Shown here: positions 49,001-52,000 of the stretch, piece after piece | Layout: each line of letters opens with the position of its first letter | Numbering within the stretch: position 1 is the first letter of the stretch | NCBI GenBank assembly: GCA_902728285.1 | Contig: CACVBU010000458.1 | Span: 682,001 to 746,000, forward strand | DNA: 64,000 nt | Direction: 5' to 3' | From: Clytia hemisphaerica | Lineage: Eukaryota > Cnidaria > Hydrozoa > Leptothecata > Clytiidae | Position numbers and translations under genes: made by a program | The notes under the pieces: model-generated | What the model saw: only the letters and a program-made list of their open reading frames with translations | Database searches by the model: none | What the model was told of the DNA's origin: nothing

Positions 49001-52000
49001 AATCGTCTGTTCAAAACCATCCCCACTGGATATTTTAAGCTCCGGAACAATAGAACTTCTATCTCCATTTAGATTTCGATAGAAATTTTTATCCCTACTG
49101 TGGGAAAAAGTTCCACCGGGGCTGTGAGACAGGGGTGGGTTAAATAAATTGACCTTATTTGATTCCAGTTGAAGCTCTTCAAATCTATACGTTTTACTAT
49201 TCCACATAATACATTATTCAATAATATTGAAACTCTCATAAAACGACGCTCTACTATCCGATAAGATCCCTTAATCGATGGAAATTGACAATTCTGATAT
49301 TTTGAAGGGGTTCTTATGAGATATTTGAGGACACATTTCATCACTATAGGAACCAGGTAGTTCAAATAGTTTCGCGAAGTATGGCTTTTAATGGGTATAA
49401 TGTTACTGACAGCAAGTACAGAGAAAACTATTCACACTCCCCCCCCTCGGAAAATCGAATTAGAGAGCGTCAAATGTCTCTTTGGTGTTATCTTTTTTTT
49501 TAAATTCTTCTTTAATTTTAATTTCTCCTAGAAAAAAAGACCACTATTCAACAAACAGAAGAACAAATCATCAATTTGAAGAAGAAGAATCAGAAGAATC
49601 ACATGGCTTCAGTAAATCTCGCAATCAGAAATGTCAAGCACATCAATAAAGTTCTACCGAAAGGAAAGCACTCAATTCTTTCCATGAGACCTGGTCAATT
49701 TGTGGAATACATGAAAACCAACGATTTAAAAAGATGTTCAGTCATCCATGATGGTACAAACATGAGCTCTCAAGTGAGTTCACCTGAACTCCGCGAATTG
49801 CAAGAATTTTGCTCAAGTGAAAACAACCAAGATTATTCGAAACATGAAGGCCTCTTTTTTGAGATTGGACCACGTAGTGATGCGCTCCTTGGTGCTTTTG
49901 TGTGGCGAACCAACCGCGGCCAACCATGCGGCGGTGTCAGATTGTGGGAATATGACACAATGCAGGATTATCTATCTGACGGGTTACGCTTATCGCAAGG
50001 TATGGGTTTGAAATCTGCGTTGGCTGGCTTGTGGAATGGCGGCGGTAAGGGCGTTATAGCGTCACCTGGTAAGGATAAAGAAAGCGATCCAGATTACCGT
50101 AGAAAGATCCTTCTCGATTACGGAGATTTCGTCACATCATTGAACGGCGCTTATATTGGAGCTGAAGATGCTGGCGTTACAGTGGCCGATATGGATGTCA
50201 TTTTTGAGCGGACCCGGTTCATGACATGCATCTCAGAATCCAAAGGTGGTTCTGGCAATCCTTCCACTGCGACTGGGAAAGGAATCGTCTGTGCTATGGA
50301 AGCTACGTTAGATTTCCTTGGTGAAGGAACATTGGAAGGAAAAACTGTTGTTTCTCAAGGTGCTGGGAATGTTGCAAAAGTGATCTTTGATAACCTTCTG
50401 GATATGGATGTTGGCCATATACATGCGACCGACATCAATGAACAACAACTTGACCGTACAGAGAAAATGTTTGCGCATAAGAATCATGGCAGATTGACAC
50501 TAGAGCAAGTACCCAAAGAAAGAGCAAACGAAGTCCTTTCAATGCCTTGTGATATTCTGTCTCCAAACGCGTTGGGGAATGTCTTGAACGAAATGACCAT
50601 CCCGACCATCCAATCGAAGATTGTGTGTGGTGCAGCTAACAACCAGCTTGGTAAACTAGCCGACAACAAATCAATGATGGACCGTGGGATAACATATGTT
50701 GTTGACTTCTTATGCAACAGAATGGGAATCGTCAAATGCGCCAATGAAACTTATGGTCGTCTAACTGATGATCCTGCATTGCTCCAACACTTCAGTAAAG
50801 AATGGCCTCATTCAATTTGGAATGTGACCCATGAGGTTCTGGCAACAGCTCAAGATAAAGGGATCACACCAGTTGAAGCAGCCATTGAAATTGCCGATAG
50901 AGAAAGTCAGAAGCTTCACCCAATCTGGCCTTACCGCGCGCGGAAGATTATTGAGAATCTCAATATGGAAGGCTGGGTAGATGCTTAAAAATGAAAATGA
51001 TAGTTTTCTTGAGAAAGACACCTAAACACAAAAGTTTTTTTGTATATAAACTTCGGTACTTCTTCTCAGCTTTAAAGGCTTGAGCCATTCAATGTTACGT
51101 ATTTTGGAACTCGATCTTGGAACTCGTAAAATATTTGTTTTTTTCGTATTTCGATCGAAATCACGCGTTAACTATTACATAACCATTTAAAAGGAATAAT
51201 ATCTTTATTTAGTATTTTTTGTTTGAGTATGCAAAGCTTAACCAAATTCCAACAGTATCAAGCCTAAATCTCAATAAGTTCTTTGAAATGTTTTTCCATA
51301 CACTTTCTTATATACAAAGCGTGTTAATTTTCATCAATAGCACCAGCTTTGTTTTTCTTAGTTTTTCTTTAATTGTTGTTCCAAGTTTTTATTTTTTTGT
51401 ACATATTTTCTTTAAGTGGCATTTGAGGAAGACAAGAACTTAATTATCCTTCTAAAGTCCTGTATCATTATTATTCCATGGCAATTATCTTTAATCATTG
51501 ATGATACCATGAAAGCTTATTTCCAGGTATTTTTCAAGTATTTAAGGAAATATATTATTTGATCTTTTACTCGTATTCAGCTTAAAATTTTCAAAACATT
51601 TTATTTCTAGGAAAAGAGAAAATCTCACTTTAACCCTATTAGCCCCAAGCTTTTTTGACTTTTGTATCCCCAGGGGGGGGGGGGTAGAATCTACCACCCT
51701 CGATTATTTTCGATCTAGAAGAGCTATGGCCATGAAATTTGGTACAGATTTTCTCCATCATGATACAATTTTCCAGGAAGAAAAAAAAATTGATGACGTC
51801 ATTCAAAAACTGATGACGTCATCACAAAATTTCCACCTGTCAGAAAAAAGCCCAAATATATGGTTTACAAAAATGTCTTTTACAGTCGAATCAATAAAGA
51901 TATTTCGCTTCTGTTTGAAGATTCTGAAAGGTAAAAGACTGTTCTTTAACATAATTGCCGGTTTTGCAATTTCCATGAAGATCTTTTCTTAAAATCTATG

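Follow-up and report, generated by a model that had tools for sequence, protein, structure and literature searches.

How does a gene for an amino-acid dehydrogenase of bacterial type come to lie inside an intron of an animal housekeeping gene, and what might its host gain from it? The question is raised by a 64,000-bp stretch of the genome of the hydrozoan Clytia hemisphaerica (contig CACVBU010000458.1, forward-strand positions 682,001 to 746,000; hereafter the window), in which an open reading frame (ORF) at 49603-50988, encoding an enzyme of the ELFV superfamily, lies within POLD1, the gene for the catalytic subunit of DNA polymerase delta. Animals are usually described as starting the breakdown of branched-chain amino acids by transamination. 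A first-pass annotation had taken the ORF for a bacterial-type leucine/valine dehydrogenase gene, either horizontally acquired long ago or ancestral. Judging from the sequence comparisons described here, it is probable that the animal removes nitrogen from amino acids with an old enzyme whose ancestry is bacterial.

The ORF is complete from its ATG to its TAA and, as first described, comprises 461 codons without introns. In 30 first-order Markov surrogates of the window, stop-free frames reached 213 codons at most; a frame of 461 codons is therefore not due to chance. Both Pfam domains of the superfamily exceed their gathering scores in the product (PF00208, 70 bits, E 3.3e-19, cut-off 23.4; PF02812, 40 bits, E 3.8e-10, cut-off 25.3), which together with the catalytic set and the loop binding nicotinamide adenine dinucleotide (NAD) makes it a member of the ELFV superfamily. 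The completeness claimed for the catalytic and NAD-binding residues was likewise found: K137, K149, D189, G253 and G255 are invariant across the 48 rows of our alignment A3, and the GAGNVA loop is present. We take K137 to be the catalytic or substrate lysine, K149 the catalytic lysine and D189 the catalytic aspartate. The AlphaFold model of the protein has a predicted local distance difference test score (pLDDT) of 91, and the top PDB matches are leucine and phenylalanine dehydrogenases. The coding sequence has a guanine-plus-cytosine (GC) content of 44%, against 36% in the surrounding region. Upstream of the ATG the frame stays open, as had been noted, through an acceptor-like sequence ending at 49531 and back to 49522. 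Rfam gave no match above the gathering score within the window.

The strongest evidence that the enzyme works comes from a second copy of the gene. A search of the genome with PF00208 (417,433,876 bases in 951 contigs; 7 candidates, all scored; the counts are lower bounds) gave at least five matches: an ORF on contig C760, the gene at 49603-50988, two pieces on C727, presumably exons of the ordinary glutamate dehydrogenase gene, and, on C508, a frame of 470 codons. The C508 paralogue, 460 residues long from its own ATG and also intronless, is 80% identical to the window protein. The coding DNA of the pair is 78% identical, with nonsynonymous (dN) and synonymous (dS) divergence of 0.111 and 1.317 (dN/dS 0.085, by NG86 alone), so that the amino acids have been conserved while the third positions changed. 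The pair is old and under purifying selection, in agreement with the age first proposed. The homology is confined to the coding region (L130 877-2216) and the flanks cannot be aligned; an acceptor-like CTAG precedes the ATG in each copy. The C508 copy lies on a separate 2.6-Mb contig, with a fumarase gene (FumaraseC_C, E 2.5e-26) on one side and on the other a MED29-like gene whose match is weak (21.4 bits, below the cut-off of 25.2).

Some further features of these genes were seen in passing. Third-position GC is 0.41 in the window copy and 0.28 in the C508 copy (L132), and about 2.2 kb of open tandem repeats with RSGTVEGCGIIPIWV-like units (L134:5495-7723) lie near the fumarase gene beside the C508 paralogue. 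The C760 ORF (G000:C760:2623269-2624006; L129; L136:6264-7715, minus strand) is an intact, intronless NADP-glutamate dehydrogenase gene of bacterial type, scoring 754 bits to PRK09414 (cut-off 536), and thus a second bacterial-type ELFV enzyme in this genome. Bacterial-type NADP-glutamate dehydrogenase genes are known from corals.

Relatives were collected by scanning genomes of bacteria and archaea with a guide alignment made of the C-terminal 122 residues and two invented rows. Of 192 matching stretches 131 were relatives, and the best 80 of these formed the bacterial set. The window protein matched all 80 in tblastn, the top segment covering at least 380 residues in 77 and starting at or before residue 36 in 69. 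The highest bacterial identity over at least 380 residues was 48.4%, and up to 54% was reached over the C-terminal third. After 6 of the 80 had been dropped, 74 members were long enough to align; they are 38.5-46.5% identical to the window protein (median 44%) and 40-98% identical to one another (median 50.7%). In L070 the match extends at 47% identity over 437 residues from residue 24 on, that is, over the full length including the N-terminal module. NRMG replaces NAGG in the two animal copies and in each of the 42 bacterial rows inspected, a regularity that is partly built in because the scan patterns contained Y.DF.CN or RMGIV, i.e. parts of this motif. By titles and labels the subfamily spans Myxococcota, Acidobacteriota, Calditrichota, Latescibacterota, Krumholzibacteriota, Bacteroidota, Ignavibacteriota, Planctomycetota, a few Gammaproteobacteria and others. 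On these alignments the window protein belongs to a bacterial NRMG subfamily of about 435 residues with an extra N-terminal module, for which we found no specific name; NCBIfam gave none that fits.

Mobile elements yielded only more distant relatives. Plasmid-borne relatives were at most 39% identical (among 40 of 63 matches listed), and in an alignment with eight of them the window protein has insertions and motifs of its own; the three phage-borne records were at most 34% identical, and with the C508 copy as query identity did not exceed 35% (5 of 49 matches listed). Single-protein scans of genome contigs and viral contigs returned no relatives, and in viral contigs neither a DNA pattern for GLWxGGGKGV nor two subfamily alignments had a match; an alignment of the general family matched 37 loci there at 25-40% identity, with the 40% confined to a segment of 75 residues. 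In five bacterial loci whose neighbouring ORFs were read by eye a common operon was not apparent.

The name leucine/valine dehydrogenase, in contrast, does not hold. The nearest NCBIfam model is the tryptophan dehydrogenase ScyB (NF035922), to which the protein scores 175.4 bits against a cut-off of 600; the C508 paralogue and all three bacterial members tested (183-207 bits) also miss it. The pocket of leucine dehydrogenase presumably consists of Leu40, Val291 and Val294 together with NAGG, and we take the position of NRMG to adjoin the side-chain pocket. Read from the alignment alone, the window protein has C109, I376 and C379 plus NRMG at these positions and so does not match the leucine dehydrogenase pocket, although some leucine dehydrogenase-like rows vary there too.

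The bacterial ancestry of the gene is well supported by the tree. In a tree of 84 rows (2 animal, 74 bacterial and 8 leucine dehydrogenase-like), the subfamily and the animal pair are separated from the 8 outgroup rows with 100/100 support, a split that was repeated with 4. The two animal copies form a group (100/100) whose stem measures 1.5 changes per column and which lies within a 33-row clade (95/91) in which 19 of the 31 bacterial rows are labelled Myxococcota; when 8 long-branch rows were removed, the enclosing clade of 32 rows received 100/98. The rows nearest to the pair are bacterial, in a sampling that is bacterial apart from the pair itself. Because these two are the sole eukaryotic rows, the tree shows bacterial ancestry but not the time or route of arrival.

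Of the basic, mitochondrial-type N terminus noted at first, only the outermost part proved to be an addition. Both paralogues have a basic extension of about 22 residues beyond the bacterial start, with 5 K/R and no D/E in the first 24 residues and amphipathic moments of 0.61 and 0.58, and the AlphaFold model has a helix at residues 2-12 and pLDDT below 50 at residues 15-20. The part from about residue 24 to 64 is, instead, shared with the bacterial subfamily; rows of leucine, phenylalanine and tryptophan dehydrogenase structures begin only at residues 64-66, whereas some glutamate dehydrogenase rows reach back to 50. Counting ATG starts only (GTG and TTG were left out), in 32 of the 74 bacterial members the open frame leaves space for fewer than 15 extra residues at that place, and in a further 36 the space exists but no ATG lies 15-40 residues upstream, so that 68 in total are without an ATG able to give a 15-40-residue extension. 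The extension is thus mostly missing in bacteria and is compatible with mitochondrial import, which makes it a candidate targeting sequence.

Taken together, we consider it fairly probable that the gene encodes an old NAD-dependent ELFV amino-acid dehydrogenase of bacterial ancestry, kept as two intronless nuclear paralogues, with the following history and function. The gene would have been transferred horizontally, with a bacterium in the Myxococcota-rich half of the subfamily as its donor, or have come via an intermediate; it would then have gained a short import sequence and been duplicated. The enzyme would now work in mitochondria, reversibly removing the amino group from an apolar, branched-chain or aromatic L-amino acid to give a 2-oxo acid, ammonium and reduced NAD (NADH). 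Its antisense position in POLD1 would be a by-product of where one duplicate landed and no regulatory device. Several points weigh against this scheme. The donor side is soft because of the long stem and because a narrower, mostly Myxococcota group of 21 rows including the animal pair reached only 92/61 in the reduced tree, which is not firm; four Myxococcota rows (L062, L101, L102 and L128) are placed elsewhere. Selection by motif-bearing scan patterns affects the bacterial set, and 6 of the 74 members do have an ATG allowing an extension of 15-40 residues. The substrate could be something else, because the classical enzymes have other residues at the place of R373-M374, next to the pocket. 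Finally, since the comparison set is bacterial apart from the pair, the gene may instead have come down vertically from an early eukaryote or animal.

We give nearly an even chance to this last alternative, in which an old metazoan or eukaryotic gene of ancient bacterial ancestry was inherited vertically but disappeared from vertebrates and insects, with an ordinary duplicate as the nested copy. Other animals of the phylum, and perhaps organisms outside it, would then carry the gene as well, and the account overlaps with the transfer scheme, which leaves the age of transfer open. The long stem without a near bacterial sister, the divergence of the two copies (dS 1.3) and the presence of the intronless C760 gene, of a class also known from corals, all suit it, whereas the lack of introns in both copies, within a POLD1 that is itself in several separate pieces, does not; nor did we find a leucine-type dehydrogenase of animals in the open-access literature (among the matches listed; subscription papers lie mostly outside). 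A narrower version of transfer, in which a myxobacterial-type enzyme was captured, given mitochondrial import and doubled for direct NAD-linked deamination (or synthesis) of hydrophobic amino acids that bypasses transamination, with an NRMG pocket that may specify a substrate other than those of leucine, phenylalanine or tryptophan dehydrogenases, seems to us rather unlikely.

How the copy reached the POLD1 intron is a separate matter. That nesting and the intronless form mark an insertion was part of the first proposal; both features are real, but nesting says little on how the gene entered the animal, because only one copy is nested and the other intronless copy lies elsewhere. The nested copy might be a retrocopy of the C508 gene, an idea that we hold possible but doubtful. 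The homology ends at the coding region, the copy is antisense within the intron, and both copies are intronless, though this last is uninformative because the supposed parent is intronless too. On the other hand, no poly-A tract occurs within 300 bases past the stop, and the acceptor-like CTAG upstream of each ATG would not be expected to survive in a retrocopy; at dS 1.3 all retrocopy marks may have decayed. A decaying or silent copy without function is very improbable: two copies could permit the loss of one, but there are no stops or frameshifts in the 461 codons, dN/dS is low, the catalytic residues are kept and the predicted fold is confident. A contaminating bacterial sequence or a recent insertion from a symbiont, for which nothing speaks except the bacterial homology itself, can practically be dismissed. 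The gene is integrated between host genes, with POLD1 exons on both sides, as is its 80% identical paralogue on the second contig; repeats run through the intron, and neither the GC content nor the modest bacterial identity fits a fresh arrival. We therefore rejected it, unless the assembly were chimeric twice.

The host gene was confirmed as follows (Table 1). Three regions have phmmer matches to 6s1m_A, the catalytic subunit of DNA polymerase delta: 57912-58163 (E 1.2e-25), 54882-55166 (E 4.7e-8) and 43828-44091 (E 4.5e-20). A donor GTAAGT from 54952 and an acceptor CAG ending at 43986 delimit an intron of exactly the length first stated, and since the joined, unbroken frame reads CLGC...CKHC, this intron splits the CysA site, again as stated. 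As POLD1 runs on the minus strand and the dehydrogenase on the plus strand, the gene is indeed nested antisense.

Table 1 Features of the dehydrogenase gene and its host intron (window coordinates)
Feature	Position	Strand	Basis
CDS, intronless, 461-residue ELFV-type amino-acid dehydrogenase	49603..50988	+	ORF ATG to TAA, Pfam matches
Open frame upstream of ATG, with acceptor-like TTTCTCCTAG ending at 49531	49522..49602	+	function inferred
Basic extension, residues 1-22, candidate mitochondrial targeting sequence	49603..49668	+	absent in most bacterial relatives
N-terminal module, residues 24-64, common to the bacterial subfamily, outside leucine, phenylalanine and tryptophan dehydrogenase structures	49672..49794	+	alignment, structure matches
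ELFV dimerisation domain, residues 101-204	49903..50214	+	PF02812
K137	50011..50013	+	invariant in A3 alignment
K149, within GGGK	50047..50049	+	invariant in A3 alignment
D189	50167..50169	+	invariant in A3 alignment
ELFV NAD-binding domain, residues 215-431	50245..50895	+	PF00208
GAGNVA dinucleotide-binding loop, residues 253-258	50359..50376	+	sequence, alignment
NRMG, residues 372-375, replacing NAGG of classical leucine dehydrogenase	50716..50727	+	alignment
POLD1 intron, 10,967 bp, GT...AG, dividing the CysA cysteines	43986..54952	-	joined frame
POLD1 exon, first CysA pair CLGC, 5' boundary not fixed	54953..55166	-	open frame, phmmer
POLD1 exon, second CysA pair CKHC plus the first pair of CysB, 3' boundary approximate	43828..43985	-	phmmer, joined frame

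Other elements were observed in the window. Within the POLD1 intron, inverted arms of 97 bp at 44063-44159 and 47296-47392 are 92% complementary, each arm being itself an inverted repeat (91-95%) and one lying about 80 bases from the POLD1 acceptor; they may form an element like a miniature inverted-repeat transposable element. An 89-bp tandem array (57642-57871, 2.6 copies, 97% matches) adjoins the POLD1 exon pieces. Frames of a non-long-terminal-repeat retrotransposon at 30925-34155 (+) have endonuclease and reverse-transcriptase matches and a weak PHD-like match below the cut-off; the first of them contains the stretch LLVLSGQIEINPGP, which we take to be 2A-like. Another reverse-transcriptase element lies at 37002-38719 (+; RVT_1, E 2.6e-21, in 37002-37820), and fragments of a Mab-21 domain gene (PF03281, PF20266) at 4200-7029 (-).

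If the proposed function is right, a selected and probably mitochondrial pair of dehydrogenases would provide a second entry to the breakdown of branched-chain amino acids, releasing ammonium and NADH directly, and a bacterial subfamily of many phyla would acquire a testable role. The locus is also a clear example of how a gene of bacterial type can reside within the intron of a housekeeping gene. Were orthologues common in the phylum of the host, the gene would be an ordinary though little-noted one.

Among enzymes of known structure, the bacterial leucine dehydrogenases of Bacillus, Geobacillus and Exiguobacterium (PDB 1leh, 6acf, 8gxd) share the two-domain ELFV fold, the K/K/D set and the NAD loop with the animal protein, at up to 190 bits and 32-34% identity. 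They match it only from residue 64-65 on and so are without its N-terminal module, and leucine dehydrogenase-like rows, which form a separate clade (100/100), have S/A-G-G and mostly Leu and Val/Ile at the pocket, where the animal protein has R-M-G and Cys, Ile and Cys. A further close system is the phenylalanine dehydrogenase of PDB 1bw9 and 1c1d, presumably from Rhodococcus. ScyB of Nostoc (PDB 5b37), although the best NCBIfam match, is excluded as a family name by its cut-off. In the literature, a compendium of metazoan horizontal gene transfer (PMC13342648) mentions no dehydrogenase in its main text, a leucine dehydrogenase of degrading bacteria appears in PMC10878102, and expressed contigs similar to Glu/Leu/Phe/Val dehydrogenases are reported from Rhodnius (PMC3886914). 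Transfer of this superfamily into a eukaryote has a precedent, since PMC6629376 reports a horizontally acquired Glu/Leu/Phe/Val dehydrogenase (OG0006136) in the Cyanidium lineage, the host there being a red alga. The closest likeness is to the subfamily of about 435 residues (Plesiocystis, Nannocystis, Calditrichota, Krumholzibacteria and others), which aligns with the animal protein from about residue 24 to the end and has the NRMG, GLW.GGGKG and HPI...R motifs in common with it; the animal copies differ in their roughly 22 additional N-terminal residues, their long stem and C109, where 33 of 42 bacterial rows have Ala.
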